Under the pieces are notes generated by a model. That model was not told the origin of the DNA, searched no databases, and was given only the letters and a program-made list of their open reading frames with translations. A stretch of 60,594 nt of DNA from Clostridia bacterium. GTDB taxonomy: Bacteria > Bacillota > Clostridia > Christensenellales > Borkfalkiaceae. The translations under genes were made by a program, and so were the position numbers. Positions 1,272 to 21,547 of this stretch are shown here, piece by piece (the stretch's first letter is position 1; every line of letters begins with the position of its first letter). The stretch spans positions 1-60,594 of the forward strand of contig JAFTHU010000002.1 in the NCBI GenBank assembly GCA_017457215.1. The letters are read 5' to 3'.

Positions 1272-4200
1272 ATGTCGAATTTTGATTTCTTACAAAAAGA
1301 ATGGCCGTTGTTAGCTAAGTTGGCGCAAACGGCAGAAAATTACATATACGACGATCCGAATTCGTGTTTAATAAAACTTGGGATGTTGGCAGAACACATT
1401 GTAAGTTATATTGTTGATGTCAACGGTATTGTTATGCCCGAAGAGGCAAACACGCAGGCAGATAAAATCCGTCAATTGAAAGCAAAAGCGCTTTTGCCAA
1501 GGGATATTGACGATATTTTATATGGATTGAGAAAGGCAAGAAATGAAGCTGTTCACGCAAATTTAGATTCGTTTGAACGTGCTTGTTTAATGCTTGAACT
1601 TGCTTATAAATTATGCATTTGGTTCAATGCGACTTATGGTACGACTACAGTAAAATGTAGCGAGTATGTTTTGCCTGAAAAAGCTCCGAATTATGCTGAA
1701 ATTATCGAGCAACAAGAAGCGGAGATATCCAAATTAAAGAGCCTTGCAACAATTGCACCGATTAAGCATAAATCGACAGTTCAGCAAAACCGTAGAAAGT
1801 CCGAACAAAATGCAAAATTGATGACGCTTTCGGAAAAAGAAGTCCGCTTTTTCATTGATGAGCAATTAAGAAAAGCTGGTTGGGAAGCTGATACCCAAGC
1901 GATAAGATATAGCAAGGGGACAAGACCGATAAAAGGTCGTAACATGGCAATAGCGGAATGGCCGACCAATTCTTCGGCGATGAAGAAGGGCTATGCAGAT
2001 TATGCTTTGTTTGTTGGTGAACAGCTTATCGGTTTGATTGATGCGAAGAAACCAGCGGAAGATGTGGCATCAACAATTGACGTGCAAATTAAAGACTACG
2101 CAAAAAATATCAAGCCAGAACACGCTGCGTATGTTATAGATAACTGGTTTGGATATAGCGTACCATTCTTGTTTGCAACCAACGGCAGACCGTATTTAGA
2201 ACAACTCAAAACAAAATCGGGCATATGGTTTTTGGATGCAAGAAAGCCGTCTAATATTTCTTATCCGATCCGCAACTGGTTTAGCCCTGACGATTTGATG
2301 GCAAAATTAAAGCATAATATAGAAGAAGCGGACGAAGCGTTGACCGTTTCCGACGATTCTTACATGACCGACCCTAACGGTCTTAATTTGCGTGATTATC
2401 AAATCAAAGCCATCAATAAAGTAACACAAGCCATTGTTGACGGTCAGCAAAGTGTATTGATTGCAATGGCAACAGGTACGGGGAAGACGAGAACTGTCCT
2501 TGGGCTTATCTATAAAATGCTTGAAACCAAGCGTTTTAAGCGTATTTTATTCCTTGTAGACAGAACCGCACTCGGCGGACAAGCTATAGATACCTTTAAG
2601 GATGTAAAACTTAAAGAGCTCAAAACACTTTGCCAGATTTACGACGTAAAAGACATCGAAGATAGAACGGTAGACCTTGAAACAAAAGTAAGCGTTTCAA
2701 CCGTTCAAGGCTTATTAAAACGTACGATTTTAGCCGAAAAACCCGAACTCACTTCGGGCGCCTTTGACTTGATTATCGTAGATGAAGCGCACCGCGGTTA
2801 TATTCTTGATAAAGAAATGACCGAGGATGAATTGCTTTACGATACGCAAGATGACTATTTGAGTAAATATAAACAGGTTATCGAATATTTTGACGCGGTA
2901 AAAGTTGGTTTGACGGCAACGCCTGCGCTTCATACCACGCAAATTTTTGGCTCGCCTGTGTTTACGTATAGTTATCGTGAAGCGGTAATCGATGGCTGGC
3001 TGGTTGATCACGATCCGCCGTATATAATCAATACTGATTTTAATACAAGTCCTGTAACATTCAAAAAAGGTGAACAGCTGGGAATGTTCGACCCGAACAC
3101 GGGCGAGCTTATCAACGGCGAAACACTGCAAGACGAATTAGATTTTGATGTGGCAGATTTTAATAGAACAATTGTTCTTCCCGATCATACAAGAAAAGTT
3201 TTACAAGAAATTTCTAAATATCTTAATCCAGAAAGCCGTGAAAAGACGTTGATTTTCGCTGTAAATGACAATCACGCAGATAACATTGTAACCACACTTC
3301 GCGAGATATATAAAGAGTGGGGCGTGTCAAATGATGCAATCGTGAAGATTACAGGAAAAACGGCAAGCGGCAACAAAAAGAAGATTGAACAGGTTATAAA
3401 GCAGTATAAGAATAACCAATATCCCAATATTGCAGTAACAGTAGATTTGTTGACAACGGGTATTGACGTTCCGTCTATTTGTAATCTTGTGTTCATGCGC
3501 AAAATCAACAGCCGTATTTTATACGAGCAAATGTTGGGGCGTGCTACCCGTCTTTGCAAAGAAATCCATAAAACCCATTTCAATATTTTCGACCCCGCCC
3601 ACGTTTATGATGATTTGGGCTCGGTAAATTCGATGAAATCCGTTTCTGTAAATAAAACAATGACGGAACTCCTCGATGAATTATCTCGTCCGTCTGAAAA
3701 TAGTAAACAGCAAACGATTGATAGAATTTTAGCAAAGTTGCAGCGTAAAAATAACGCACTTTCCGAAGAACAACGTTACGAAGTGAGCGAAAATATAGGC
3801 AAATCTATACCGCAATACGTAGCAAGTATTAAAGTTTTATCCGTTCAGCAGGCGGTAGATAAACTTATCAGCGATGCTGAAACTTTGGTGTATATTGAAA
3901 GTATCAAACCTCCCAAGAAAGGTCAATATTTTTCTGAGAGAAAAGACACTTTGCAGGAAACTACTCGTGGTTATGGTAAGACGGATAGACCCGAGGATTA
4001 TCTGGAAGCGTTTACAAAATATGTGAACGAAAATAAAGACAAGATAGAGGCGATTAAAATCGTTTGCACAAAACCTTCCGACTTAACAAGAGCGCAGCTT
4101 CGTGAACTCAAACTTGCACTTGATAAAGAAGGTTATAACGAAACTTCGCTTAATGAAGCAACCAGTGCTATTAAAAATGCGGATATCGTAGCGGATATAA

Positions 4201-4496
4201 TTGCTTACGTTCGTCAAGCGGTTTTGAATATCCCTGTTTACAATAGGGAAGATAAAATCAAAATTGCCTTTGAAAAACTTATTAAGGCGCATAGCTTTAA
4301 CAAGATTCAGTTAGACCTTCTTGAAAAGATTAAAACGTATATGCTTCACGAAAGTCTGTTAAACGTAGAAACTTTTGAAGCACCTGCTTTCAAGATGGAT
4401 GGCGGATTTAATCGCTTCAATATCAAGTTTGAAGGAAAACTTTTAGAAATTATCAGAGAAATCAACACTTATATATATGAACAAGGAGTAGCATAA
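1272..4496 (+). CDS. hsdR: Type I restriction enzyme, R subunit
   Basis: A motor and cleavage subunit of about 1074 residues, normal for the family. An N-terminal DUF4145-like helical domain (about 1-130) precedes a PD-(D/E)XK region with Asp in GYADYALF and IDAKK near residue 255. The SF2 translocase has Walker A ATGTGKT near 399 and a DEAH box near 503, and an EcoEI-type C-terminal helical region follows. It would translocate and cut DNA lacking the HsdM/HsdS methyl mark. The start is ATG 1272 behind TAGGAGA rather than the upstream in-frame ATG at 1257. The stop TAA overlaps the hsdM ATG in a TAATG junction, indicating coupled translation. It is intact, with all key motifs present. Confidence 0.93.
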   Translation: MSNFDFLQKEWPLLAKLAQTAENYIYDDPNSCLIKLGMLAEHIVSYIVDVNGIVMPEEANTQADKIRQLKAKALLPRDIDDILYGLRKARNEAVHANLDSFERACLMLELAYKLCIWFNATYGTTTVKCSEYVLPEKAPNYAEIIEQQEAEISKLKSLATIAPIKHKSTVQQNRRKSEQNAKLMTLSEKEVRFFIDEQLRKAGWEADTQAIRYSKGTRPIKGRNMAIAEWPTNSSAMKKGYADYALFVGEQLIGLIDAKKPAEDVASTIDVQIKDYAKNIKPEHAAYVIDNWFGYSVPFLFATNGRPYLEQLKTKSGIWFLDARKPSNISYPIRNWFSPDDLMAKLKHNIEEADEALTVSDDSYMTDPNGLNLRDYQIKAINKVTQAIVDGQQSVLIAMATGTGKTRTVLGLIYKMLETKRFKRILFLVDRTALGGQAIDTFKDVKLKELKTLCQIYDVKDIEDRTVDLETKVSVSTVQGLLKRTILAEKPELTSGAFDLIIVDEAHRGYILDKEMTEDELLYDTQDDYLSKYKQVIEYFDAVKVGLTATPALHTTQIFGSPVFTYSYREAVIDGWLVDHDPPYIINTDFNTSPVTFKKGEQLGMFDPNTGELINGETLQDELDFDVADFNRTIVLPDHTRKVLQEISKYLNPESREKTLIFAVNDNHADNIVTTLREIYKEWGVSNDAIVKITGKTASGNKKKIEQVIKQYKNNQYPNIAVTVDLLTTGIDVPSICNLVFMRKINSRILYEQMLGRATRLCKEIHKTHFNIFDPAHVYDDLGSVNSMKSVSVNKTMTELLDELSRPSENSKQQTIDRILAKLQRKNNALSEEQRYEVSENIGKSIPQYVASIKVLSVQQAVDKLISDAETLVYIESIKPPKKGQYFSERKDTLQETTRGYGKTDRPEDYLEAFTKYVNENKDKIEAIKIVCTKPSDLTRAQLRELKLALDKEGYNETSLNEATSAIKNADIVADIIAYVRQAVLNIPVYNREDKIKIAFEKLIKAHSFNKIQLDLLEKIKTYMLHESLLNVETFEAPAFKMDGGFNRFNIKFEGKLLEIIREINTYIYEQGVA

Positions 4497-5905
4497 TGAG
4501 CACGCAAGACATTGTACAAAAACTTTGGAATCTTTGTAACGTACTAAGAGACGACGGTATTACGTATCACCAATATGTTACCGAGCTTACCTATATTCTT
4601 TTCTTAAAAATGGCAAAAGAAACGGGTGCGGAAAGCGAAATTCCTGAAGAATATCGTTGGGATTCCTTGACGAACAAGTCAGGCTTGGAACTCAAAAAGC
4701 ATTATTATACGTTGCTTACCAAACTTGGCGAAGAATCTGTCGGCAGAGTCGCTCAAATTTATGCAAACGCATCTTCTAGCATAGAAGAGCCGAAAAACCT
4801 TGAAAAAATTATCAAGGAAATTGATAGGCTTGACTGGTATGAAGCAAAAGAAGAAGGGCTTGGCGATTTGTATGAAGGATTGCTTGAAAAGAATGCAAGT
4901 GAAAAGAAGTCGGGCGCAGGTCAATATTTCACGCCCAGAGTTTTGATTGACGTGATGACCAAACTTATCGCACCTGGGCTCGGCGAAAAATGCTTTGACC
5001 CTGCTTGTGGCACGTTTGGTTTTATGATTGCTGCAAACGCTTTCGTAAATAAAAACGTAGATTTTTACACGCTTACTGATAGACAGGCAGACTTCCAAAG
5101 AAATAAGGCGTTTAACGGTGTGGAACTTGTCCACGAAACCCACCGTCTTGCGTTAATGAACGCATACCTGCATAATGTTAATGCGAATATTGTGCTTGGC
5201 GATTCGCTTTCTCAAAGCGCAAAAGGATTAAACGGTTTTGACGTTATTTTAACGAATCCACCTTTTGGAACAAAGAAGGGCGGTGAACGTGCTACCCGTG
5301 AGGATATCTCTTTCCAAACATCGAATAAACAACTCAACTTCTTGCAGGTTATCTACCGTAGTTTAAAGGCGGACGGTAAAGCTCGTTGTGCGGTTGTATT
5401 GCCCGACAATGTGCTTTTTGCTGGCGGTGACGGTGTAAGCGTTAGAAGAGAATTGATGAACTTCTGTAATTTGCATACCATTTTAAGGCTTCCTACGGGT
5501 ATCTTCTATGCACAGGGCGTAAAAACCAATGTACTGTTCTTTACCCGTGGCGTTAGCGAAAATGGGAACACCAAAGAAGTTGCCTTCTACGATATGCGTA
5601 CCAATATGGATAGTTTCGGTAAAACCAGAACGCTTCGTCCTGATGATTTTGATGAATTTGTTTTGGGTTATAACGATAAATCCAAGCGCACAGGCGAGCG
5701 TTGGTCGTCTTTCACTCGTGAACAAATTGAAACGGAATATAACGACAGTTTGGATTTGGGCTTGATTCGTGACGAAAGCGTTAAAGATTATGAGGATTTG
5801 GCTGACCCTGTAGAAAGCGGAGAAGAAGTAGTTGCCAATTTGGAAGAAGCAATCGACTTGATTAAGAGCGTGATTAAAGAACTCAAAGCGTTGGAGAATA
5901 AGTAA
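4496..5905 (+). CDS. hsdM: Type I DNA N6-adenine methyltransferase, M subunit
   Basis: A 469-residue subunit with an HsdM N-terminal helical domain (about 1-130). The SAM-dependent MTase core has motif I as DPACGTFGF near residue 170 and the catalytic NPPF near 254. With HsdS it methylates adenine in the bipartite target; with HsdR it forms the restriction complex. It overlaps hsdR and hsdS by one base at TAATG junctions, the usual tight hsd operon. An acidic C-terminal tail is predicted to contact HsdS. Motif I has F where many relatives have G (GTFGF against GTGGF). The protein is full length and probably active. Confidence 0.93.
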   Translation: MSTQDIVQKLWNLCNVLRDDGITYHQYVTELTYILFLKMAKETGAESEIPEEYRWDSLTNKSGLELKKHYYTLLTKLGEESVGRVAQIYANASSSIEEPKNLEKIIKEIDRLDWYEAKEEGLGDLYEGLLEKNASEKKSGAGQYFTPRVLIDVMTKLIAPGLGEKCFDPACGTFGFMIAANAFVNKNVDFYTLTDRQADFQRNKAFNGVELVHETHRLALMNAYLHNVNANIVLGDSLSQSAKGLNGFDVILTNPPFGTKKGGERATREDISFQTSNKQLNFLQVIYRSLKADGKARCAVVLPDNVLFAGGDGVSVRRELMNFCNLHTILRLPTGIFYAQGVKTNVLFFTRGVSENGNTKEVAFYDMRTNMDSFGKTRTLRPDDFDEFVLGYNDKSKRTGERWSSFTREQIETEYNDSLDLGLIRDESVKDYEDLADPVESGEEVVANLEEAIDLIKSVIKELKALENK

Positions 5906-7464
5906 TGGCAAAAGCAAAAAAACAAGAAAAACCCATTGAACAGCGTTTAGAAGAAGCCCTTGTTCTCTACGAAAAAACGCCTTATGAATTGCCATCAAAC
6001 TGGTGTTGGACGAGGTTGCCGTATATAACGCAAATAAAGACGGGAAAAAGAGATGCAAATCACGCTAAAGAGGATGGACAATATCGTTTCTATACTTGTT
6101 CGGCTGAGTATTCAATGGCGGACACATATGCTTTTGAGGGAGAGTCTATCATTGTTCCAGGAAATGGCGATATAGGTTTGGTTTTTTATTACGACGGTAA
6201 ATTTGAAGCGTATCAAAGAACATATGTAATAAATGGGTTTAAAGGGCAAACGAAATATCTCTATTATTACTTTTATTATAAATGGAGAGAAAAAAACACC
6301 TATAAGCAATTTGGTACGGCTATTCCTTATGTGCGAATGGCGAATTTTGAAGAATTTGAAATTCCGCTTGCGCCGTTAGAAGAACAAAAACGTATTGTAG
6401 AAATTATTGAAAAACAATTTGCAAAATTAGATGAAGCGCGTGATTTAATCCAAAAATCTTTGGATTCTTTTGCCGATCGCAAATCAGCCATTCTCCACAA
6501 AGCCTTTACAGGCGAATTAACTAAACAGTGGAGAGAAAATAATTCCGTGATACAACAGAAAAATACTGTGAATTTTCTAGATTGTATTGAAGATATGCAA
6601 AATGGGATTTCGAAAAGAAATGGTAAAGAAGGAAAAGACTTTGTTGTTTTGCGTTTAGCAGATTTGAAAGAGAATAGAATTTCCACAGATGATAATAGGA
6701 CGATAAAATTAACTGAAACGGAAATCAGAAAATATCAGTTAAAAGAAAACGATGTTATTATGATTCGTGTTAATGGTTCAAAAGATTATGTCGGCAGGCA
6801 GATACTCTTTAATAAAGAATGTAATTGTGCTTATTGTGATCATATTATTAGAATTCGATATCGCAAAGATATAAATGCTAAATTTATGCTTTATTTTTCT
6901 CAAACTAGGGAGTATAAAGATTATATTTTACAAAATCTCGTTTCTAGTGCAGGACAAAATACGATTAGTAGAAAAGGGCTGTCTAGATTAAAATTAAACT
7001 TACCATTATTTGAAGAACAAGAAGAAATAGTACGGATTTTGGATTCGATTTTTGAAAAGAAAGATAAGTCAAAAGAGCTTATTGATATGCTTGACAAAAT
7101 CGACGAGATGAAAAAATCCATTCTCGCCCGCGCCTTCCGCGGCCAACTCGGCACATTCAATCCCACCGACGAACCCGCCACCGACCTTTTAAGAAAAATC
7201 TTGAAGAATCAAGAGAATATAATTATTGAAAAAAAAGAGAACAAATCAACCTCGAAAAAGGTTCTTCCGTTTAATCGAAATTTAAATAGTCGCCTTAAAA
7301 AGATTTGTGAATTACTGCTTGCTAATGATGGTTTATCTATTGATGAATTAGCACAAGGCGTTGGGAAAGATGTGAGATATTTATTTGACGATATAAGAGA
7401 ACTTTTAGAAAAACAATTGATAAAATTAGTAGACAATAGGTATTGGTTAAATGCAAATAATTAG
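5905..7464 (+). CDS. hsdS: Type I restriction specificity subunit with winged-helix tail
   Basis: A 519-residue protein, longer than the usual 400-450. TRD1 (about 15-150) is followed by a conserved helical spacer beginning PLEEQKRIVEIIEKQF. TRD2 (about 210-370) is followed by the second spacer FEEQEEIVRILDSIFEKK and the conserved ILARAFRGQLG box near residue 407. Beyond it lies an extra segment of about 90 residues ending in an LSIDELAQGV...IRELLEKQLI winged-helix-like unit, not part of the normal subunit. TRD2 is clearly more AT-rich than the conserved box at about 7080-7190, suggesting mosaic assembly. The 3' end overlaps the next ATPase gene by 14 bases. Confidence 0.9.
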   Translation: MAKAKKQEKPIEQRLEEALVLYEKTPYELPSNWCWTRLPYITQIKTGKRDANHAKEDGQYRFYTCSAEYSMADTYAFEGESIIVPGNGDIGLVFYYDGKFEAYQRTYVINGFKGQTKYLYYYFYYKWREKNTYKQFGTAIPYVRMANFEEFEIPLAPLEEQKRIVEIIEKQFAKLDEARDLIQKSLDSFADRKSAILHKAFTGELTKQWRENNSVIQQKNTVNFLDCIEDMQNGISKRNGKEGKDFVVLRLADLKENRISTDDNRTIKLTETEIRKYQLKENDVIMIRVNGSKDYVGRQILFNKECNCAYCDHIIRIRYRKDINAKFMLYFSQTREYKDYILQNLVSSAGQNTISRKGLSRLKLNLPLFEEQEEIVRILDSIFEKKDKSKELIDMLDKIDEMKKSILARAFRGQLGTFNPTDEPATDLLRKILKNQENIIIEKKENKSTSKKVLPFNRNLNSRLKKICELLLANDGLSIDELAQGVGKDVRYLFDDIRELLEKQLIKLVDNRYWLNANN

Positions 7465-9052
7465 ATTAGAAGTCAGCAATTATAAATGCTTAAAAGATTT
7501 CAGTATCGATTTTACAACCGATTATGAAAAAGGGTATTCAAATACCGTTTTAATAGGCGAAAATGGGGCAGGTAAATCTTCCATTATAGAAGTAATAACT
7601 ATGATATTGATGTCCTATGATTCGTTAGCTGTTGCACGACAAATCGATTTTTCATATATTCTTGATTATGTGTATGCTGGTCGAAGAATTGCATTAATTT
7701 ATAATTATGAAGCGAATAATTATAGGGTAGTCGTTCAAGAAGATAAAGACATTATCATTGATTCTACATTTAGAACTACGACAAGGATAAAATATTATTT
7801 ACGCTCGAAAAATATTGATTTATTCCCGTTAAATATTATTACATATTATTCAGGTACGGATCAAAGATTAAACAGATTGAATCGTGATCGTGATAGGGCC
7901 TATACCAGAAGGATACATGATTTTTTAGAATACCGTACTTCGTTTCATACGAGATTTCAAGAGCCGACAGAGTTTCCTGAAAAGAAATATTGGTATTATT
8001 GTAGAGATATTGCTATTCCTATTATGTTGGCTTTATTGCTTTCAAAAGACGAAGAGGCAATTCGTATTAAGCGTAAATTAAATATACGCAAGATTGATTC
8101 ATTCCAAATTGAAATTGATTTAAGAAGTTTAGTTCGTTATACTGGTACGATGATTCCTAGAAGAGAATCTTCTCAAATGGAAGAGTTTTGGAATGTATTA
8201 GATGCGTTAGATATTCATATTTGTCGTAACTTAGAAAGAAGTGAAGTATTAGTGACGGAAAGTTTTTTGGTCATTCGTGTAAACGATTTTAGAGATTGGC
8301 ATAATAATAGTTATTCAATTTTGGACTTTTTTGATAAATTAAGTTTGATTTTTGATGTTGTTTACGATTTAAAGGTGAATGTTGCAGGGCAGCCTGTTGA
8401 TTTCTTTGACTTAAGTGAAGGACAACGACAATTAGTTAATGCATTAGGTATATTAACAATTTGCAAACAACAAGATTCCTTGGTTTTGATGGATGAGCCT
8501 GATGTGTACTTAAATCCTAGATGGAAATATGAATATTTGGAATACTTAAGAGATTCGATTCAAGGGGCGATCAACACGCAAATTTTGATTTCCACTCACG
8601 ATCCGTTGATGATTAATGGTCTTGAAAAAGAATATATCCGAAAGTTAGAATTAAAACGGGCTCGCCAAGGATATAAAACATCTGTTTATTATCCGATGGA
8701 AGATACTAGCGGTTTGGGTATAGACGGTTTATTGCAAAGCGAGTATTATGGATTGAAAACATCTTATGATAGTAATACGAGTCAAAAATATCAAAGACGT
8801 GCAGAATTATTCTCAAAATTAATTCACGAAGAATTGACAAATGACGAAGAAGTAGAGTTGACAAACCTTACGAAAGAACTGAACGGATTACCAGTAATGA
8901 ACACTTCTATCGATTATTTGTACGACGATTTTATGCGTGAATATCGAAAATCTAAGTATTATTTGGAAGAATATTTGACGGCGGAACAAGTAGAAGAAAA
9001 AAACAAACATATTGCTGAATTAATAGAAAAATTATTTAAGAACAAAGGATAA
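7451..9052 (+). CDS. Restriction-associated RecF/PtuA-like AAA ATPase
   Basis: A 533-residue ABC/SMC-type ATPase. Walker A is GENGAGKS at 36-43, the signature is LSEGQRQLVNALG near 320, Walker B is LVLMDEPDVYLNP near 345, and the switch histidine is in STHDP near 380. An N-terminal VSNYKCLKDF strand is typical of RecF/OLD/PtuA-type proteins, and there is no long coiled coil. It is followed after one base by an HNH nuclease gene, the PtuA-PtuB arrangement of Septu defence; AAA proteins of this sort are also annotated as restriction-system-associated. The ATPase would sense or gate and the HNH partner would cut. The start overlaps hsdS by 14 bases, so it is translated with the type I genes. Confidence 0.75.
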   Translation: MQIIRLEVSNYKCLKDFSIDFTTDYEKGYSNTVLIGENGAGKSSIIEVITMILMSYDSLAVARQIDFSYILDYVYAGRRIALIYNYEANNYRVVVQEDKDIIIDSTFRTTTRIKYYLRSKNIDLFPLNIITYYSGTDQRLNRLNRDRDRAYTRRIHDFLEYRTSFHTRFQEPTEFPEKKYWYYCRDIAIPIMLALLLSKDEEAIRIKRKLNIRKIDSFQIEIDLRSLVRYTGTMIPRRESSQMEEFWNVLDALDIHICRNLERSEVLVTESFLVIRVNDFRDWHNNSYSILDFFDKLSLIFDVVYDLKVNVAGQPVDFFDLSEGQRQLVNALGILTICKQQDSLVLMDEPDVYLNPRWKYEYLEYLRDSIQGAINTQILISTHDPLMINGLEKEYIRKLELKRARQGYKTSVYYPMEDTSGLGIDGLLQSEYYGLKTSYDSNTSQKYQRRAELFSKLIHEELTNDEEVELTNLTKELNGLPVMNTSIDYLYDDFMREYRKSKYYLEEYLTAEQVEEKNKHIAELIEKLFKNKG

Positions 9053-9053
9053 A

Positions 9054-9791
9054 ATGAGATATATAGATACGACACAGTTATATTCAAAAGCCAGTGCTTG
9101 GAGTGGTGTTAATTTATGGGAGAATAAAACTCTAAAGCAGGATTTTAGAGAATTCTTTTTCAATAAATGTTGGTATACTGAATGTCCGTTGAGTGGGCAG
9201 GATGTACATATAGATCACTTTAGGCCAAAGGCAAAAATAGTTAGATTTAAAGCATATCCATACAACACAACCATCGCGACAGCAGGATATGATTGGCTGG
9301 CAAATGATTATAAAAATTACCGAGCTTGTTGTATATATGCTAATAGAAAAACAGGCAACGGAGGAAAGAGTAATTACTTTCCTTTACAACACGGGAGTCC
9401 ACATGCACAGAATGGAAACATAAATGGGGAAATAGGGATGCTTATAGATCCTCTTGTGCAAAGCGATGTAAAGTTATGGGCATTTTTAAACAATAAGATA
9501 GAGTGTTCATCGAATAATCCGTACGATAAATCTAGGGTGGAAGTATCAGCAACAATATATAATTTAGTCGATCCAGGGCTGACAGCTGACCGCTTAAAAA
9601 AATGGGATGAAGTGACACATTGTATTGAGAGATTTTTAGGTGGTAAGATTGATAAAGATGTTTTAAAGGAAGATCTTTTGGAGATGAGTTGTAGGGCGGC
9701 ACCTTATTCTGCGGTGGCAATATGTTGCATTAAAAGCAGAAAAAGCGATATTCCAAGTGATGTTTATGATCAATTGGATTTAAATTTATAA
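9054..9791 (+). CDS. HNH endonuclease, PtuB/TIGR02646-like
   Basis: A 245-residue protein. A CPLSG...HIDHFRPKAK segment (residues 44-61, catalytic H55) and a YDWLANDYKNYRACC segment (79-93) give the H-N-H pattern seen in Septu PtuB and in HNH proteins next to retrons and AAA ATPases. It starts one base after the AAA ATPase stop, indicating a two-protein effector with the ATPase controlling nuclease action. The target is probably nucleic acid. No Shine-Dalgarno beyond AAAGGA in the end of the upstream gene is needed. It is full length for the family. Assignment to Septu proper rather than a relative is uncertain. Confidence 0.72.
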   Translation: MRYIDTTQLYSKASAWSGVNLWENKTLKQDFREFFFNKCWYTECPLSGQDVHIDHFRPKAKIVRFKAYPYNTTIATAGYDWLANDYKNYRACCIYANRKTGNGGKSNYFPLQHGSPHAQNGNINGEIGMLIDPLVQSDVKLWAFLNNKIECSSNNPYDKSRVEVSATIYNLVDPGLTADRLKKWDEVTHCIERFLGGKIDKDVLKEDLLEMSCRAAPYSAVAICCIKSRKSDIPSDVYDQLDLNL

Positions 9792-9807
9792 AAAAGGTTG
9801 TAAGAAT

Positions 9808-11037
9808 ATGCGAATAATAGATTTGTTCTCTGGTGCAGGTGGACTTACATTTGGTTTTTATTATAAATTAGTAAACGAGAAATTCATTAGAACGGATAAT
9901 GAGTTTATTTTTGCTAACGAAAAAGATTTGAATGCGGCTAAAGCATTCAAGAAAAATTTTGAAGATATTCACATGATTCAAGGCGATATCAAAGATATTA
10001 AAGATGAACAAATCGAAGAAATGATAGGTGCTAATGATGTTGACATTGTTATTGGTGGACCACCTTGCCAATCATTCAGTACGGTAGGACAACGTCGTTA
10101 TGATGATAGAGCAAAATTGGTGTTTGAATATTTAAGAATTTTGAAAGTTGCTCGCCCAAAAATGTTTTTATTTGAAAATGTTAAAGGAATGCTATCTATG
10201 CGCGAAGTTTTTTATAAACTAGACGCAGAAGGCAATGTTGTTACTGAAGATAAGCAAATTGGACACGAAGGCGGGAAGAAACGAACTATTAAAGTCCCTG
10301 TTGTTGACTATTATGGGGAAAAGATATTGGATGTTATAAAAAGGGAATTTGGCGAAATAGAAGAAGGTTTTGGCTATACAATTAAAGAACAAGTTGTTAA
10401 TGCCGTGGATTTTGGCGTGCCACAAAATAGAGAAAGGGTTGTAGTTGTAGGAATTAGAAAAGATTTGAACATAGAACACCCCGTTTTTGAAGTTGAAAAA
10501 AAAGACGTATTGACCATTAAAGATGCAATTTCAGATCTTCCCCCAATTGGTGAAAATCAAGAGAAAAAAGAATATACTAGTAAACCTATAACAGACTATC
10601 AACAACTAATGCGTGGGGAATGTAAAGAATTAAAAGATCATTATTGTTTGAGTTATGGTGAAAAAATAAGGAAAGTAATAGAAACTGTTGGCCAAGGTCA
10701 AGGTAGAAATGATTTTAACAAGCTGGTAGATGAAGGCAAAATTGAAAAAAAATATTATTTGACTTCTGGCTATGCTAATACATACGGACGCCTTGAAGAG
10801 GATAAACCTTCTACTACAATTACAAATAATTTGGCAACACCTTCGGGGTTAAGATGTATTCATTATTCGCAAAATAGAGCTTTAACGCCACGAGAGGGGG
10901 CGCGCATACAATCTTTCCCTGATAGTTTTGAGTTTGTTGGAAGTAGAACTGATATAACAAGGCAAATAGGAAATGCTGTACCGCCATTATTGGCAATAGC
11001 TATTGCACGAAAGCTGGAGAGCCTTTTAGGAGATTAA
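9808..11037 (+). CDS. DNA C5-cytosine methyltransferase
   Basis: A 409-residue Dcm-family enzyme with the ordered motifs: I as DLFSGAGGLTFGF at 4-16, IV as GGPPCQSFS with the catalytic Cys near 85, VI as FENV near 120, VIII as QNRERV near 209, and X as RQIGNAVPPLLA near the end. The target recognition domain lies at about 230-340. It transfers methyl from SAM to cytosine C5, normally protecting self DNA. No conventional cognate restriction endonuclease lies next to it. The two genes after it are a MORC/kinase-like ATPase (3 bases away) and a receiver protein, so it may mark DNA for that pair. It follows the HNH gene by 16 bases. Confidence 0.92.
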   Translation: MRIIDLFSGAGGLTFGFYYKLVNEKFIRTDNEFIFANEKDLNAAKAFKKNFEDIHMIQGDIKDIKDEQIEEMIGANDVDIVIGGPPCQSFSTVGQRRYDDRAKLVFEYLRILKVARPKMFLFENVKGMLSMREVFYKLDAEGNVVTEDKQIGHEGGKKRTIKVPVVDYYGEKILDVIKREFGEIEEGFGYTIKEQVVNAVDFGVPQNRERVVVVGIRKDLNIEHPVFEVEKKDVLTIKDAISDLPPIGENQEKKEYTSKPITDYQQLMRGECKELKDHYCLSYGEKIRKVIETVGQGQGRNDFNKLVDEGKIEKKYYLTSGYANTYGRLEEDKPSTTITNNLATPSGLRCIHYSQNRALTPREGARIQSFPDSFEFVGSRTDITRQIGNAVPPLLAIAIARKLESLLGD

Positions 11038-11040
11038 ATT

Positions 11041-13158
11041 ATGTCTGAAAATATTGATATTCGAGAAATAACGACGGAAGAAAAAATACCTTTTAATTTT
11101 ACGTATTACGCAATGAAATTGCTTGGGCGTAATTTGTATTCTAATCCTTGGACTGCTATTTCTGAAATTGTTGCAAACGGGATTGATGCTAAGGCACCAG
11201 AGATATGTGTTTTAGTGGATATGAGGAATAAGGATCAATCTATTATTGAAATATTCGATAATGGCTATGGTATGTCGTATAAGGATTTATGCGAAAAATA
11301 CACATTAATTGGGCGAAATAAAAGAAATAGTATAGATAATATCAGCGGAAAAACGCTGGGGCGTAAAGGTATTGGGAAGTTAGCTGCATTATATTTGTCG
11401 CCCAAATATTATTTATTTACAAAAACGAAAGACGAAATTTCTTCTTGGGTCGTTAATACTGTAGGAATAAATGAGTCGGAGATTCCCACTTTAAATAGAA
11501 TAGCTAATGCTGAAGAAATTTTAGTTGCAAAGCAACAATGGGAGAGTTGTGAAACAGGAACCTTAATACATTTAACCAATGTTGATCTGACGAATATTGG
11601 GAAGGAAAGAATAAAAAGTTTGTATGCCATTTTAACTGATTATTATCTTCCTTCTTTAATTGATAGTAAAATTAAAGTTTGTGTATTGTCTTCCGAAAAT
11701 GAAAAAATAGATTTTCAAGAAATAGAGAAAAAAATTTCTTTCAAGTCATTGTCTGCTATTTTTGATAATTCAGGTAAGAATTATTCTGAAAAATTGCCAG
11801 AATACACTTATCTGCTTAATAAATCGGGGATTTCAGAATTGGATAGTATAAAAGAAAAGACAACAGTTCTAGATATTGCTAAATATCCAATATCTGGGGT
11901 GTTACCGATGGTTGATTTAAATGGAGATATTATTGAGGCAGAATATGCATTGACTGGTTGGATAGGAATTCATAGCTCATTGGATAAGGATATTTTAGAG
12001 CGCAATGATTTGAATTATAAAAAGATTCAAAATCATCCTAATGCTTTACGTTTATATGTTAGAGGAAAATTAGCTGTTGGGAATTTAATGAATTATGTGG
12101 GCTCAACTCAAGCACTTTCAAATTATATAGAGGGTGAGATTTCATTTGATATTTTAGATGATGACAGATTTGAAGATGCATCTACTTCGAATCGAGAAGG
12201 ATATAGTTTGTCCGACCCGAGAGTTATCAAGTTGATAGATATAGTAAAAAAGATAGTTACATCTTTAATTTCTGAAAGAGCGTTTATGGGTAAGCATTCT
12301 AATTCGCTCCGCGATGCGTATTTCAAGAAATTAGAAGAAGAAGAAAAAAGGAGAAGGGAAGAGGAAGAAAGAAAACGCCAGCTTGCGGAATCAGAAAGGA
12401 TAAAAGCTGAGCAAATTGCAGAAGAGGAAAAACAAAAACGTATTCAAAGCGAAGAAGAACGTGATGCTACAAAAAAACAATTTTACTTCCTTGAACAGCA
12501 ATTGACGGAAGATGATAAAACAAGAGCATATAATACGCATGTTATTAAAAATAATGCCAACAATATTCACGATAATTTAGTTTTGTTGTTAGAGGAGCAT
12601 CCAGAATGTAAAACATATGATGAAATAAAAGCAATTTCTATTTCTGATCAAAAAATTTTAACGGCAGTAAAATACTACAACAAAGTAAATTATGGCTTAG
12701 AAAACAAGGTGATTACGGGTGATATTTCATCATTTATTCAACAATATGTTAGGGAAGTGATTTTATCAGAATATTTGACAATCCACCCTGTTGTTGATGA
12801 TCCTATAAATTGGGTTTGTGCATTTTCCCCTCAAGATTTGACTGTATCGCTCGAGAATATTTTTTCAAATGCCAATAAAGCAGGGGCGAACAGTGTTAAG
12901 GTGTCTTTTTTAAAAGAGAATGATTATTTAATTATCCAATTTTCAAATAATGGAAAAAAGTTGCCAGAAAACTGTAATAGTGAACAGTTGTTTGAGTTTG
13001 GTTATAGTACATCGACATCAACGGGAATTGCGATTGGTACAGGGATAGGCTTGTTCCAAATTAAGGAGTTGTTTGTTGATGATTTAGGTGGTGCCGTTAG
13101 AATTTTTAATAATGAGAACGAAGGAGTTACATTGGAGATAAAATTATATGAAGCTTAA
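11041..13158 (+). CDS. MORC/Hsp90-like ATPase fused to histidine-kinase-like ATPase
   Basis: A 705-residue protein with two GHKL ATPase domains. The first (about 15-400) has N-box EIVANGIDA at 42-50, G1 DNGYGM at 73-78, G2 GRKGIGK at 107-113, and the ERNDL and TSNREG segments typical of MORC-like proteins. A highly charged coiled coil spans about 428-490. A DHp-like helix follows with candidate phospho-histidines H500 and H510. The second GHKL (about 590-702) has N-box ENIFSNANKAGA, F-box FEFGYSTS and G2 GTGIGLFQIKELF; its G1 reads SNNG where DxG is usual. It overlaps a receiver-domain gene by 11 bases. The inferred job is a DNA-engaging sensor that phosphorylates, or allosterically controls, the receiver partner. 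Confidence 0.75.
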   Translation: MSENIDIREITTEEKIPFNFTYYAMKLLGRNLYSNPWTAISEIVANGIDAKAPEICVLVDMRNKDQSIIEIFDNGYGMSYKDLCEKYTLIGRNKRNSIDNISGKTLGRKGIGKLAALYLSPKYYLFTKTKDEISSWVVNTVGINESEIPTLNRIANAEEILVAKQQWESCETGTLIHLTNVDLTNIGKERIKSLYAILTDYYLPSLIDSKIKVCVLSSENEKIDFQEIEKKISFKSLSAIFDNSGKNYSEKLPEYTYLLNKSGISELDSIKEKTTVLDIAKYPISGVLPMVDLNGDIIEAEYALTGWIGIHSSLDKDILERNDLNYKKIQNHPNALRLYVRGKLAVGNLMNYVGSTQALSNYIEGEISFDILDDDRFEDASTSNREGYSLSDPRVIKLIDIVKKIVTSLISERAFMGKHSNSLRDAYFKKLEEEEKRRREEEERKRQLAESERIKAEQIAEEEKQKRIQSEEERDATKKQFYFLEQQLTEDDKTRAYNTHVIKNNANNIHDNLVLLLEEHPECKTYDEIKAISISDQKILTAVKYYNKVNYGLENKVITGDISSFIQQYVREVILSEYLTIHPVVDDPINWVCAFSPQDLTVSLENIFSNANKAGANSVKVSFLKENDYLIIQFSNNGKKLPENCNSEQLFEFGYSTSTSTGIAIGTGIGLFQIKELFVDDLGGAVRIFNNENEGVTLEIKLYEA

Positions 13159-14152
13159 TTATAAAATTTTATGGGTAGAAGATTATCCTAAAGATATGCA
13201 AGTGCAAATGGGGAAGATAAAACAGTTAATAAAAAATAACTATTTGTTGCCGATAGGATTGGAATCTAGGGATGCTTTTAGAAGTTATGAGGATTTTATT
13301 AAGTATATTGAGCTGAGAGATGAAGATGATTTTTCAGATATAGATTTAATTTTGGTTGATTATAACCTGTCAGATGGTTCTAAACGTACAGGTATAAATA
13401 TTGTCGAACAGCTTCGAAAGAAAAATATTTACACTGATGTGATATTCTATTCTGGTAACATAGATGAAGCAATAAAGCAAGTAAAAGGATATGACGGCGA
13501 ATTGGATAATGTAACATATACCGATAACGCAATGGATAAATTCTTCCCTAAATTTGAAAAGGTATTACATAAACAATTGTCTTTAATTATGCAAATATCT
13601 GATTTGAGAGGATATCTTATGGATTCCACCTCGGACTTTGATTTTGTAGCGCGCGCTTTTGTTGAAAAGTTTTTCCCTTGTTTAACCCCTGACGATAAAG
13701 AATTAATATATAATGAAATCGAGAGATGCATAAAAAAACAAGAAGGAAGGGAAACGAAAAAATTTGAAAAAACATTAAAATTATCCCATGACGATGTTTT
13801 TGTAAATAAAGCTATGGATTCACAGGAATATGTTATGACGGTTAAAGATAAAATTTTTATAATGGCTCTTATTTTCCAAAAATATAATTGTGAAGCTGCG
13901 GAATTCGCAGGGGATTTTGCGGAACAATATGACCAAAAAATTATCAAGTATCGAAATAAGTTGGCGCATACAAAGTTGGATTATGGTAAAAATCAGAGTG
14001 GTCATATCAAAATTGCGAATAATTTAGATGACTTGGAATGCGATTGTTCTAAGTGTATTAGTAAATTAACCAAAGAAGAGTGTGCGGATTTAAGAAAACA
14101 CATTTACGAATACTATTCATTTTTTTATGGTTTATTAGAGAAATTGATTTGA
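13148..14152 (+). CDS. Response-regulator-like protein with HEPN-like C-terminal domain
   Basis: A 334-residue protein. The N-terminal receiver fold has the acidic pair E11-D12 (WVED), phospho-acceptor D71 in LILVDYNLSDG, and S102 in VIFYSGN. The C-terminal ~180 residues are helical and resemble no DNA-binding output domain. They contain KYRNKLAHTK, i.e. R269-X4-H274, the catalytic signature of HEPN ribonucleases, followed by a C-D-C-S-K-C cluster at 298-303. It overlaps the MORC/kinase gene by 11 bases and ends the run before a terminator. The inference is that the kinase-like partner controls this protein and the output is RNA cleavage and growth arrest. The receiver is clear; the HEPN call rests on one short motif and helical content. 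Confidence 0.65.
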   Translation: MKLNYKILWVEDYPKDMQVQMGKIKQLIKNNYLLPIGLESRDAFRSYEDFIKYIELRDEDDFSDIDLILVDYNLSDGSKRTGINIVEQLRKKNIYTDVIFYSGNIDEAIKQVKGYDGELDNVTYTDNAMDKFFPKFEKVLHKQLSLIMQISDLRGYLMDSTSDFDFVARAFVEKFFPCLTPDDKELIYNEIERCIKKQEGRETKKFEKTLKLSHDDVFVNKAMDSQEYVMTVKDKIFIMALIFQKYNCEAAEFAGDFAEQYDQKIIKYRNKLAHTKLDYGKNQSGHIKIANNLDDLECDCSKCISKLTKEECADLRKHIYEYYSFFYGLLEKLI

Positions 14153-14349: not shown

Positions 14350-14919
14350 TTAGGTTTGTTCAGATATATTGAAAAGAATTTCAATCTCTTCAAAAAGATT
14401 TTTGAGATCTAACAATAAAATAGCACCGATAGTGATAATTTTGGACTTTGAAGGTGTTTCTATAATATACGGAATGCCTTTTTCTAAATCAGGAGCTTTT
14501 TCTAATGTGTCAAATGTAATTGGCGATACTGGAATGGATTGTCCATTCTTTTTATAAGGATATCTATAGCGATCTGAGCCAAAATCCTTTTTGTTTAGTT
14601 TTTGGAGAGCTTTTTCGAGCTTTGTGGTATTTTCTTCATTGATTGGATACAATGTCTTAAAATGCTTCCACAATGATAAAAGTGAGTGTGATTGATTAAG
14701 TTTGCATCTTCCGATTGTAATTTTCTGGGCGGATATCTTTTTGATTTTTTGGGTTTCTTTAATAATTAACCCTTTGAGAAGCAGTTCAACTGCATGGCGA
14801 AGATTAAAAGCAGTTGGGTTGTATAAATACGAAGTATTAAATAAGCTATTGTACAATGATAATGCTGCCATATGATATTCGTAAGCCATATCAAAATATT
14901 TTTGAGCGGTTTTATTCAT
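14350..14919 (-). CDS. HEPN-like domain protein
   Basis: A 189-residue, mostly helical protein. The N-terminal 60 residues contain AFNLRHAVELLLKGLI, the conserved second-helix pattern of several HEPN families involved in nucleic-acid binding or toxin function. No standard R-X4-6-H ribonuclease motif is evident in the C-terminal half, so this may be a non-catalytic member. It starts at an ATG behind GGAG and runs convergent to the defence run, with back-to-back terminators between. No antitoxin nucleotidyltransferase partner is next to it. Base composition is AT-rich like the defence genes, suggesting it arrived with them. Its role in defence is inferred from location only. Confidence 0.5.
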   Translation of the reverse strand: MNKTAQKYFDMAYEYHMAALSLYNSLFNTSYLYNPTAFNLRHAVELLLKGLIIKETQKIKKISAQKITIGRCKLNQSHSLLSLWKHFKTLYPINEENTTKLEKALQKLNKKDFGSDRYRYPYKKNGQSIPVSPITFDTLEKAPDLEKGIPYIIETPSKSKIITIGAILLLDLKNLFEEIEILFNISEQT

Positions 14920-16854: not shown

Positions 16855-17991
16855 ATGATACAAATCCCAAACAATAAGAAACTCGTCAATATGCTCACAG
16901 TCTTGACAGTGGCTGGCGAGATGCCACTTGTGGCAGCGAGCCAGGCGGGCAGTCATGAAGGCTATCGAAAGCTGTTCTACGAGTTATCAAAGAAACAAGT
17001 GTTTGTAAACACAAAGACGAACGAGCAAATGCGTGTGAAACTCATTCATATGTCAGACAGGGGCGATAAGCGAAGGGCAAGGCTGTACAAAAACGCTATA
17101 CCGATATTGGATTGGATAGGTACGCGCGCGTATTACGAAGAAATGTTCCCAGATAATAAAATGTCGGGCGGAGAACAAAATCGGTTTAGGAACGCTATGG
17201 TTGCCGAAGCGGTTTTGATGATGTTGGAAAGCGGTGTAGAAGTACTTCCAACAATGCTACCTGTATTAAGGATCAACAATCGGTACAACTCATTTGACGG
17301 GCGAAGTTGTTTTTACTCTGCAAGGCAATTAAAACAAACGCTAAACAAAGGTATAAACAAGATTGTTTCGTCGAGAATAGTCGGAGCACTGTTTGCCGGG
17401 AACAACGTGTATGCGGTCTATAATACCCGTTCCAGCGCGATAAAATGGAAGGGGATGAACGAGATGAAGACTAAGCATATTTTAACCGATTTAGCCCGTG
17501 TAAACGGCGACGTATCCGTATGCGACAGTGCGGTTATTTTCGGTAAGGACGATTGGACGGTTCTTAAATCCTTTTTCAATGCGACGGCGTATGGCGACAA
17601 GGATTTTCGGTTTGACAAAATCTATCCTAACGTTTACGCAATACCGCAAAGCCCGATTGGAATCGAGCTGTTGAAGCTGTTCAAAATACCGAACTTCCAA
17701 CAAAAAATTTTGGCGTATATGTTTGAAGAAAAGGATATATGCAAAAATTCGGGTTACGGTTGGCACGCGGTTGTGGACGGTACGTACGTATTCTCGTATT
17801 TAGACGCAAACATTGCGGCACTTTCACGCTTTTACGAAACGGCGAAGCGTGGAAAGGGCAAGCATAAATTTACGGTAATTTGCTATGACTTTCAAGAAAA
17901 ATTTATAAGGCAACATTTTGAAGGGATAGCAAGCATTGCCACAATGCCGTTTCAAACAATTGTACATGAGTTAGGAGGTAAAAAATCATGA
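16855..17991 (+). CDS. Unrecognised mobile-element protein upstream of traG
   Basis: A 378-residue protein starting behind a perfect AAGGAGG. The N-terminal ~60 residues have a winged-helix look (LVNMLTVLTVAGEMPL...YRKLFYELSKKQV), and the rest is mixed alpha/beta without a motif I can name. It overlaps the coupling-protein gene by four bases (ATGA), so the two are co-translated and probably work together in transfer or replication. Winged-helix proteins of the replication-relaxation type are found in this position in some Clostridia elements. I see no HUH or relaxase tyrosine motif, so I do not call it a relaxase. Confidence 0.5.
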   Translation: MIQIPNNKKLVNMLTVLTVAGEMPLVAASQAGSHEGYRKLFYELSKKQVFVNTKTNEQMRVKLIHMSDRGDKRRARLYKNAIPILDWIGTRAYYEEMFPDNKMSGGEQNRFRNAMVAEAVLMMLESGVEVLPTMLPVLRINNRYNSFDGRSCFYSARQLKQTLNKGINKIVSSRIVGALFAGNNVYAVYNTRSSAIKWKGMNEMKTKHILTDLARVNGDVSVCDSAVIFGKDDWTVLKSFFNATAYGDKDFRFDKIYPNVYAIPQSPIGIELLKLFKIPNFQQKILAYMFEEKDICKNSGYGWHAVVDGTYVFSYLDANIAALSRFYETAKRGKGKHKFTVICYDFQEKFIRQHFEGIASIATMPFQTIVHELGGKKS

Positions 17992-19892
17992 AACAAACAA
18001 TAAAAAATATTATCTATAAAATCAAAAAAAGTTTAATGAAACAAGATTGGAAACTGATTGGCGTTATCGTCGGTTGTATGGCAGGAACGATAGGATTGTT
18101 CTACGTATTCGGGCTTTTTGCACAGTTTATAGACTACGCGTGGGTGATGCGGTACGCCGTTATGAGCCCAGAGAAATACGATATACCCAAAGTATCTTTC
18201 GCCTTTTTGGATTGTATTGCGGCAACCTTTTCGAGCGCGGGGCTAAAGGGCATTATCGCCATCCTTGTAATCGTGATTATCGTTGCTGTACTGAATATCA
18301 ACAGGATAGAAAAATGGAGCAGAAGCAGAAAGAACGGGCGTGGATTTGAAAGAAGTGAAAGCAATTCCCACGGCTCGGCAAACGAATTATCCTTTAACGA
18401 TATAAAAGAACGTTTTGAGGTGTCCACCGTTGACGAGTCGAGAGGTATCATTTTGGGCGAAATCCGTGATAAACTCGTTTGTCTTCCGCATGACAAAAAA
18501 GGCAACAGGAATATTGCCGTAGTAGGTTCGTCAGGGACGGGTAAATCGAGAGTGGTTATTCGCAATGCACTGTTCCAAATGATGATAAACGGCGAATCGG
18601 TGGTGTTGACTGACCCCAAGGGCGAGCTGTATGCCGATACGGCGTATTTGTTTGCTTTGTACGGGTATGAAATCAAAGTACTCAATCTTGTGGATATCGA
18701 AAGAAGCGACGGTTGGAATCCTATGGAAGACATTGTAAAACAGCCTGAAAAGGCAACTGTTCTTGCGAAATCGTTGATTATCAATACCAACACGTCAAAC
18801 GGCGGAGATAAGTTTTGGGACGATGTTGCGGAAAATCTGTTAAAGGGTTTGATTTTGTACGTTGCTTTGGACGAAAATTTGACAAGAGAAGAAAAGAACT
18901 TGGCGGAAGTGTATAGGCTGATAACGATGGAAAACGAAAACGAGTTTTGTCTGCTACTGGGACGGCTTTCCGATAAACATCCTGCCAAGCAAGCGTTTAA
19001 TACGTATTTGATGAGTACGGAATCGGTGCGGATGAGTACCCGCGCAGGGCTTGCAACCCGTCTTGGGATTTTGCAGGAAAAACGGGTAAAGGATTTCTTC
19101 TCGTCTGCGGATATGAACCTTTTCTTACCAGCCGAACGCAAGTGTGTATATTACGTCATTACCAGCGATAACGATATGTCTAAAAATATGATTACGGCGT
19201 TGTTCTTTACGTGCTTAATGCAAAGCGTACTTGCGTATGCGGACAAACAGCCCGATAAAAAATGTGCCGTACCCGTAAACTTCGTGTTGGATGAGTTCAA
19301 CAACGTGGGCAAACTGGGTATCAGCGTGGACGGTAGCGATTTTGCACGGTTTATCAGTACCTGTCGTTCGAGAGATATTAACGTGACGTTTGCCGTTCAA
19401 GGTATCGGGCAGTTGCAAAACAGATACGGAAATTGGTTGTGGTCGGATATTCTCAACAATTGCGATACGCAAATCCTTTTGGGTTGCAACGATATGATAA
19501 CGGCAGAGTATTTTTCCGCACGGAGTGGCGAAATCACAGTAGAATACGACACATATTCCAGAAGCGAACGGACGGGCAGTAGGGAGAATGCCTATACCTA
19601 CAGCAAGCAAAAAACCAAACGCAGATTGTTTACGCCCGACGAAATCTTGCGAGGTGATCCGTCCAAGCTGAAATGCTTTTGCGACGGGCTTGGGGTAATG
19701 ACGCTGGATAAATTCGATTATTCCCGTCATTCTCTCTATAAGTATATCGTAAAAGAAGACGTCAACGAATATGTTCCCGAACGGGAAAACAAACCCGTAG
19801 AAAGGGCTGAAAAGGACGAAAAACAGCCCGAAAGTAAGACGGAAAAGGGTTTCTATAAAATCCGTACAATCGACGCTAAAACGGATGTGTAA
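17988..19892 (+). CDS. VirD4/TraG-type conjugative coupling ATPase
   Basis: A 634-residue T4SS coupling protein. Two N-terminal membrane segments (about 22-45 and 85-105) anchor a cytoplasmic FtsK/TraG ATPase with Walker A VVGSSGTGKS near 178, DPKGELYAD near 208, Walker B FVLDEFNNVGKLG near 430, and the late QGIGQLQNRYG segment. It would deliver relaxase-bound DNA to a transfer channel. A Glu/Lys-rich C-terminal tail follows. The start is behind GGAGG. No other T4SS genes (VirB4, VirB6) are in the window, so transfer machinery must come from elsewhere in the element or another element. Confidence 0.9.
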   Translation: MKQTIKNIIYKIKKSLMKQDWKLIGVIVGCMAGTIGLFYVFGLFAQFIDYAWVMRYAVMSPEKYDIPKVSFAFLDCIAATFSSAGLKGIIAILVIVIIVAVLNINRIEKWSRSRKNGRGFERSESNSHGSANELSFNDIKERFEVSTVDESRGIILGEIRDKLVCLPHDKKGNRNIAVVGSSGTGKSRVVIRNALFQMMINGESVVLTDPKGELYADTAYLFALYGYEIKVLNLVDIERSDGWNPMEDIVKQPEKATVLAKSLIINTNTSNGGDKFWDDVAENLLKGLILYVALDENLTREEKNLAEVYRLITMENENEFCLLLGRLSDKHPAKQAFNTYLMSTESVRMSTRAGLATRLGILQEKRVKDFFSSADMNLFLPAERKCVYYVITSDNDMSKNMITALFFTCLMQSVLAYADKQPDKKCAVPVNFVLDEFNNVGKLGISVDGSDFARFISTCRSRDINVTFAVQGIGQLQNRYGNWLWSDILNNCDTQILLGCNDMITAEYFSARSGEITVEYDTYSRSERTGSRENAYTYSKQKTKRRLFTPDEILRGDPSKLKCFCDGLGVMTLDKFDYSRHSLYKYIVKEDVNEYVPERENKPVERAEKDEKQPESKTEKGFYKIRTIDAKTDV

Positions 19893-19900
19893 AACAAATA

Positions 19901-19934
19901 AAGCAGTCGCCGAGCAACAGCGAGGCGACTGCTT
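19901..19934 (+). terminator. Hairpin after traG (terminator-like, weak T tail)
   Basis: AAGCAGTCGCC at 19901-19911 pairs perfectly with GGCGACTGCTT at 19924-19934. It lacks a T run, so termination is uncertain. Confidence 0.4.
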
Positions 19935-21539: not shown

Positions 21540-21547
21540 CAAAAATG

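Follow-up and report, generated by a model that had tools for sequence, protein, structure and literature searches.

In the 60,594-nucleotide stretch of DNA analysed here (hereafter the window; contig JAFTHU010000002.1, positions 1 to 60,594, of the Clostridia bacterium assembly GCA_017457215.1, family Borkfalkiaceae), three adjoining genes encode a C5-cytosine DNA methyltransferase (M, protein 1), a MORC-type GHKL ATPase fused to a histidine-kinase-like half (MORC-kinase, protein 2), and a receiver protein with a C-terminal domain resembling HEPN ribonucleases (RNases) (protein 3). These genes form a conserved unit, which, judged from sequence, is best read as a methylation-coupled two-component abortive defence module, a reading given about an even chance of being right. 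A gene set of this kind has already been described; the HEPN-type output, an accessory Pnkp-type gene in some relatives and a wider modular family appear to be new.

Conservation of the three-gene unit

Three open reading frames (ORFs), all on the plus strand, make up the module (9808-11037, 409 amino acids (aa); 11041-13158, 705 aa; 13148-14152, 334 aa), with a 3-base gap between genes 1 and 2 and an 11-base overlap between genes 2 and 3. The ORFs and Pfam matches thus bore out the layout and domain types given in a preliminary description of this DNA. Protein 1 matched PF00145 at 3.4e-72 and the TIGR00675 dcm model at 219.9 bits (cut-off 100.65). In the closest relative, locus L002, gene order was as in the window, and the methylase was 60%, the GHKL protein 48% and the receiver protein 42% identical.

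A C5 methylase was located within 3 kb of the GHKL gene in 21 of 22 divergent relatives, the sole exception being L044, whose contig ends just past the receiver gene. Since loci were retrieved by receiver or GHKL similarity and not by the methylase, this linkage is a fair test, and the neighbourhood check proposed in the preliminary description found the genes co-occurring. With the window included (n = 23), the methylase was directly upstream on the same strand in 12 loci, downstream on the same strand in three, on the opposite strand in seven, and unseen in one. Pairwise distances were correlated across 20 loci (L003, L026 and L044 excluded) for M and GHKL (r = 0.72), GHKL and receiver (0.80), and M and receiver (0.53), each reached in 0 of 5000 permutations, although shared ancestry was uncorrected and could alone produce such correlation.

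The relatives were collected by several searches. A pattern scan of genome contigs, a method limited to close relatives, yielded L002 alone, and a single-protein query against 299 genomes of the phylum matched only the window's own genome. A two-row profile gave 10 matches in 391 genomes of the class, from which the window's own and four long matches (76-92 bits) were kept, providing four more full sets; five short matches (19-26 bits) were dropped as ordinary response regulators based upon size and neighbours. The remaining relatives came from viral contigs, and L003 (partial GHKL ORF) and L026 (GHKL gene split in two ORFs) were re-added to the receiver set, for a total of 22. L042, a singleton in clustering, was placed in the HEPN class by profile match and motif, which is slightly circular. 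In the resulting 23-row receiver alignment, the closest pair was 72% identical and four pairs exceeded 60%.

Using tblastn at 1e-5, no receivers were found in plasmids (queries P0003, L027 and L024) or phages (P0003 and L027). The window GHKL protein (P0002) matched 19 plasmid and two phage records, none covering 80% of the query; among six of these neighbourhoods inspected by eye, most had a methylase beside the ATPase gene and none had a window-type receiver. No Pfam family matched a receiver-like ORF in L022, and megablast of the L027 operon against E. coli genomes returned nothing.

Candidate phosphorelay residues in the MORC-kinase and receiver

Protein 2 carries an N-terminal HATPase_c_3 and a C-terminal HATPase_c domain (Table 1). 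In the former, GHKL motifs I-III (E, N, D-G, G-x-G) are all present, as in paraMORC ATPases, and residues E42, N46, D73, G75, G107, G110 and G112 were found in 71/71 aligned GHKL family members. The H-box histidine (His500 in the window) was present in 70 of the 71; the exception, L108, has a Vsr-like ORF (by eye) downstream of its GHKL gene and no receiver. His500 was invariant in a 10-sequence GHKL alignment, and the profile built from it matched solved sensor kinases including 4jas and 2c2a (which we take to be HK853 and relatives) at 1.3e-14 over the H-box and ATPase domains, with His500 falling on the H-box His. The kinase-like half proposed in the preliminary description is thereby supported. 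The H-box His, N-box and G2 box are intact and the G1-box Asp is replaced by Asn636; this Asp was found in 64/71 family members and 18/21 of the window's class, with Asn in the window and L002. The H-box of the window branch lacks an acidic residue after the His. In L026 and L043, the MORC-kinase gene is broken into two ORFs around a transposase-like ORF (by eye) on the opposite strand.

The N-terminal part of protein 3 matched the receiver family PF00072 at 8.2e-5 (23.2 bits, cut-off 30.2), and no Pfam domain of this protein was above cut-off. D71, R269 and H274 lie where they had been placed before. Nine residues (D12, D71, G82, Y101, R154, G155, R269, N270 and H274) were invariant in all 23 receiver proteins, and W9, D66, R90, F100 and S102 were nearly so. 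From these residues, the evidence for a phosphorelay appears good for the family as a whole and weaker for the window copy, because of its atypical G1 Asn and beta-5 position.

An HEPN-like C-terminal domain

Outside the receiver part of the 23 proteins, only R154-G155 and R269-N270-x3-H274 were invariant. In the available part of PMC3710099, the HEPN motif is given as R-x4-6-H, usually with a polar residue after the R, and the RN-x3-H found in 23/23 receivers fits it. The R-X4-H motif claimed in the preliminary description was thus recovered, with R269 and H274 invariant, in a domain that looks HEPN-like by sequence. RN-x3-H occurred in the C-terminal part more often than by chance: 20/20 window-class receivers carried it, vs 1/50 downstream proteins of other classes and 145 of 10,000 shuffles (1.45%).

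When the C-terminal domains were scanned alone (n = 23), PF18735 (HEPN_RiboL-PSP) matched four, the best at 1.3e-6, and PF18737 (HEPN_MAE_28990) matched three. Apart from these two, no family matched more than one; the single-member matches included DUF4145 (9.9e-5; an HEPN family in the available part of PMC3710099), HepT-like (0.001), HEPN_Apea and HEPN_Swt1. Profile-profile comparison ranked HEPN first (E = 0.0048 and 0.031, vs 0.12-0.85 for five control sets), a result counted as consistent and nothing further, and in an underpowered comparison hhalign superposed the RN-LaH motif on the RN..vH of HepT. The HEPN comparison profiles were built from genome matches (DUF4145, 12 sequences, one of which was the window's own hsdR N-terminus; HepT-like, 24), the PF18735 and PF18737 members in the class being too few, weak or broken for profile use. 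By sequence, the C-terminal domain of protein 3 resembles HEPN RNases, with models near and mostly under their cut-offs, and RNA cutting is predicted. The preliminary description had named a plain non-toxic fold at the receiver C-terminus as a refutation of the defence module, and the sequence comparisons gave no such refutation.

Genes beside the module

In L003, L024, L033 and L040 (4/22 relatives), the gene right after the receiver gene encodes a protein of 147-151 aa, and the four are homologous (Table 1). Two were searched: they matched the C-terminal part of Pnkp1 at 7.9e-19 (L003) and 2.1e-20 (L024/L030), and the polynucleotide kinase 1ltq at 3.3e-15 (L003) and 2.7e-10 (L024/L030). The latter is presumably the T4 enzyme, and the matched part its 3'-phosphatase. 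HEPN RNases yield 2',3'-cyclic phosphate ends, as stated in the available part of PMC3710099, and a Pnkp-type gene next door is expected if RNA is cut; we take this neighbour as independent support for a predicted RNase output.

A gene for a possible accessory HEPN-like protein lies beyond the receiver gene in the window (Table 1), and its homologue directly follows the receiver gene in L002 (34% identity, 1e-13). It was rejected as a regular part of the system, as only L002 shares it among the loci compared.

Flanking proteins (48 from relatives and two from the window) were scanned at E <= 1e-5, and among the best 25 of 52 families, to which all flanking counts here refer, were DNA_methylase (three proteins), phage portal (three) and phage GPA (two), with single matches to RE_HpaII, MTES_1575, ResIII/PLD (L002) and Vsr. 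Each nuclease family listed was limited to a single flanking protein; judged from these families, the class is not tied to one restriction enzyme. In L002, a PLD-nuclease/helicase (DUF3427) gene at 2456-5611 lies directly upstream of the methylase, where the window has Septu. In L015 (12662-16388), a second C5 methylase adjoins the module, probably paired with an HpaII restriction enzyme (the RE_HpaII match came from 1/50 flanking proteins, with the locus not singled out).

Upstream of the module in the window are hsdRMS-type genes (1257-7464), followed by the Septu pair PtuA/PtuB (7451-9791). From hsdR through hsdM, hsdS, ptuA, ptuB, M and MORC-kinase to the receiver gene (1257-14152), all genes are codirectional, and no gap or overlap between neighbours exceeds 16 bases; from these coordinates, the eight could be one long defence transcript. 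To the right are a type IV secretion system TraG-like conjugative coupling protein (17988-19892), an integrase-like ORF judged by eye (20102-21397) and four tRNA genes forming a Leu-Cys-Gly-Val cluster (21548-22140). This stretch (17988-22140) is probably where an integrative element ends on the right; on the left, the element extends past the contig. G+C was 0.31-0.35 over approximately 6-16 kb and 0.40-0.52 from 16 kb onward. The region looks like a defence island on an apparent mobile element.

Table 1. Coordinates of the module, its domains and associated genes (window positions unless a locus is named)
Feature	Position	Strand	Basis
C5-cytosine DNA methyltransferase (M), 409 aa	9808..11037	+	PF00145, TIGR00675, 60% identity to L002 methylase
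MORC-type GHKL ATPase fused to histidine-kinase-like half, 705 aa	11041..13158	+	HATPase_c_3 and HATPase_c, motif residues
N-terminal MORC/MutL-like GHKL ATPase domain (HATPase_c_3), aa 36-147	11146..11481	+	PF13589, 3.9e-20
His500 codon, candidate phosphoacceptor	12538..12540	+	Invariant in 10 sequences, falls on H-box His of 4jas/2c2a
C-terminal HK-type ATPase domain (HATPase_c), aa 600-702, G1-box Asp = Asn636	12838..13146	+	PF02518, 3.3e-15
Receiver domain of protein 3, aa 1-135 (Asp71 codon 13358-13360)	13148..13552	+	Weak PF00072; D12 and D71 in 23/23
HEPN-like C-terminal domain, aa 136-334, R269-N270-x3-H274	13553..14152	+	R/N/H in 23/23; HEPN Pfam models lead across the set; window's own match weak (0.022)
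Possible accessory HEPN-like protein, 189 aa, convergent	14350..14919	-	PF05168, 3.1e-4, 21.3 bits, just under cut-off 22
Pnkp-type phosphatase genes after the receiver-HEPN gene	L003 2697-3140; L024 6900-7355; L033 9383-9835; L040 9324-9767	n/a	Homologous to one another; Pnkp1 and 1ltq matches in the two searched

A wider modular family

A total of 82 distinct GHKL matches was obtained, eight of which were under 600 aa. An ORF lay directly downstream in 70 of the remaining 74; the four without one were excluded, and the 70 downstream proteins were clustered into classes of 19 (window type), 14, 12, 9, 5 and 4 members plus seven singletons. By eye, nearly all start with a receiver-like N-terminus, L108 being an exception. 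A C5 methylase accompanied 13/14 members of class C1, 4/5 of C4 and 4/4 of C5, and 0/21 of C2 and C3 together. Among nine C2/C3 upstream genes tested, seven encoded Eco57I/N6-type methylases (L070 and L065 did not); a tenth upstream gene, beside the singleton L067, had no family match. Based upon these sequences, the MORC-kinases form a modular family, paired variously with receivers of differing C-termini and with methylases of the C5 or Eco57I type.

Viral contigs (L030-L109) hold MORC-kinase genes whose receiver-like partners (classes C1-C5, 200-613 aa) have several unrelated C-termini without Pfam names. Pfam gave nothing above cut-off except one receiver domain in 10 representatives of the other receiver classes, and PADLOC gave weak matches at most in six. 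A 'CD' motif, seen by eye, is common to C1, C4, some singletons and a PF19192-type receiver in L165.

Proposed mechanism and alternative explanations

In the favoured reading of the module as methylation-coupled abortive defence, M would methylate cytosines of the cell's own DNA; its family is clear and its target is proposed. The MORC half may act as a DNA clamp gated by ATP and respond to incoming DNA that is unmodified or abnormal, as suggested by its membership in the MORC/MutL family and by the methylase being a constant partner. Such a response would trigger autophosphorylation of His500 and transfer to Asp71 of protein 3, both residues being conserved and the chemistry predicted. Phosphorylation would then release the putative metal-independent HEPN-type RNase of protein 3, assigned by motif and family resemblance, bringing the infected cell's growth to a halt. 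Where relatives have the neighbouring gene for a Pnkp-type 3'-phosphatase, this enzyme probably processes the 2',3'-phosphate ends. A defence role is suggested by the island with type I restriction-modification (R-M) and Septu genes, the nearby TraG-like gene and the phage genes in the flanks of relatives.

Several observations weigh against this interpretation. The window C-terminal domain matched an HEPN model only at E = 0.022 (15.4 bits, cut-off 26.8), and the best full-length HEPN score in the set (27.2 bits, L027) was under the curated cut-off of 28.4. In hhalign, the C-terminal profile reached a probability of 7% with HepT, its positive control reaching 2.6%, and a PDB search with this profile had no HEPN structure among the matches listed, the best being ABL1 at 0.027. 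On the signalling side, the window kinase has Asn636 at the G1 Asp position, and the window receiver lacks the basic beta-5 residue that most other members carry. The chimaeric protein of L086 (4256-6331) is 62.5% identical to the window's in its MORC half and 31% in its kinase half, with a receiver 27% identical and an adjacent methylase only ~30% identical in the main aligned stretch. Such a swap suggests that the sensor, the kinase/receiver pair and the methylase can recombine, which weakens the case for the MORC half reading the site that M writes. The L086 locus holds three C5-methylase-like ORFs.

Three other explanations were weighed, each of them unlikely. In the first, the module is an R-M system proper: the MORC-like protein would be its restriction subunit, cutting or looping DNA in the manner of BbrUII/HgiDII, and the receiver would be an accessory regulator. 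The protein 2 N-terminus does match the BbrUII/HgiDII model NF050001, but at 134.8 bits, far under the cut-off of 550; it also matches PADLOC REase_II models. While M would be a fitting C5 partner and paraMORCs are placed in R-M operons in the available part of Iyer 2008 (PMC2292703), a Pfam scan of protein 2 showed no nuclease family, and its C-terminus is a histidine-kinase half. Lone nucleases do lie near some relatives (the PLD/helicase by L002, and the single HpaII-, MTES_1575- and Vsr-type matches), but no listed nuclease family recurs among the flanking proteins, and the invariant His and Asp fit signalling.

An equally improbable second explanation is a regulatory two-component system tuning neighbouring R-M genes, with the HEPN-like domain as a binding or dimerisation module and not an RNase. 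Signalling control of R-M systems is suggested in PMC8011034, and the wider family retains receivers with other C-termini. No DNA-binding family, however, was above cut-off in the receivers scanned by Pfam, the invariance of RN-x3-H in an otherwise poorly conserved domain fits an active site, and the Pnkp-type gene adjoins the module in four relatives. Third, and with similarly low probability, the module would be an addiction system in which lost host-DNA methylation upon element loss activates the RNase, the element being selfishly self-maintained and phage defence secondary; the element setting (TraG-like gene and integrase-like ORF) and the constant methylase agree with it, but presence in a defence island and in viral contigs fits either reading and does not separate them.

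Extended to the whole family, the defence interpretation becomes more tentative, with somewhat less than an even chance. It would describe a widespread form of two-component immunity carried by prophages and mobile elements: a MORC ATPase would inspect the modification state of DNA, signal through its fused histidine kinase and set off one of several exchangeable effectors linked to receivers (an HEPN RNase in the window class), with each lineage using its own methylase type (C5 or Eco57I-type) as self mark. If true, the module joins restriction-type self marking, MORC ATPases and phosphorelay signalling, which are usually studied apart, and provides a sister branch of the PMC8011034 systems with an output, RNA cleavage, that can be tested at defined residues. 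In addition, the response of a MORC ATPase to DNA methylation could then be studied in a simple bacterial system. Eukaryotic relatives of these ATPases act in the silencing of methylated DNA, transposons included.

Comparison with known systems

The Detocs system, which the preliminary description also named, has two-component logic, a TPR sensor kinase and exchangeable effectors on its receiver protein. By description, the window differs in having a MORC ATPase as sensor and a DNA methylase as constant partner. Protein 2 had no TPR family among its Pfam matches at E <= 1, the N-terminal part being HATPase_c_3. BbrUII/HgiDII restriction enzymes have a C5 methyltransferase partner and share a related N-terminal GHKL domain with the window protein, whose score is far from the cut-off of their model. 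The T4 Pnkp heals RNA ends of the kind expected here after PrrC.

Protein 2 resembles the paraMORC ATPases and the GHKL-Shedu protein VcSduA (paraMORC3) in that a GHKL ATPase domain with complete motifs forms its N-terminus and a DNA methylase is encoded alongside. The available part of PMC12137116 indicates that a GHKL ATPase can be required for the antiphage activity of a fused nuclease. The window protein differs from VcSduA in having a histidine kinase half and a separate receiver instead of that nuclease. ParaMORC-HEPN (Ymh) fusions near R-M genes were proposed as PrrC/RloC analogues (Anantharaman 2013, available part of PMC3710099), whereas in the window the HEPN-like domain belongs to another protein, the receiver, and a phosphorelay is predicted to connect the two. 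The accessible Fig. 6F legend on DefensePredictor (PMC13092281) has HATPase and REC among the domains of eight predicted, unvalidated systems, without making visible which one carries them. The available parts of PMC12839542 and PMC7159879 hold nothing on this combination, and a receiver-HEPN protein fed by a MORC-kinase was not found in the literature searched, where most subscription papers and preprints were outside the scope and absence is thus unproven.

The closest described systems are those of Bellieny-Rabelo et al. 2021 (PMC8011034), who linked HATPase_c_3/HK-like/HATPase_c proteins to receiver-like genes in 644 regions (91.6% linkage), noted a frequent upstream C5 methylase, defined PF19191 (HEF_HK) and PF19192 (Response_reg_2), and proposed signalling control of R-M systems in their discussion. 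The receiver proteins are said there to carry no other known domain, and HEPN has 0 mentions in the text. As this arrangement had been published, plain novelty of the gene set, and with it the claim that no such combination was described, was rejected. The preliminary interpretation was partly supported: a conserved unit, a histidine-kinase His, an HEPN-like R-x4-H domain and a mobile-element setting were borne out, while reading of unmethylated DNA by the MORC half, phosphotransfer, RNase activity and phage defence are predictions.

The window branch shares with these systems the order HATPase_c_3, H-box and HATPase_c, an adjoining receiver gene, a frequent C5 methyltransferase, a soluble form and an R-M neighbourhood. 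No match at E <= 1 was obtained for PF19192 in 12 window-type receivers scanned full-length (of 23), or for PF19191 in 10 kinases (P0002, L004, L003 (partial), P0005, L024, L027, L029, L016, L014 and L017). PF19192 does find the class member G304 (1.8e-12), whose kinase fragment has an HHEF H-box and whose receiver pieces are without RN-x3-H (by eye). Missing both Pfam models, without an acidic residue after the H-box His and with an HEPN-like output, the window branch looks like a sister group of the PMC8011034 systems that has a different H-box and a recognisable output.

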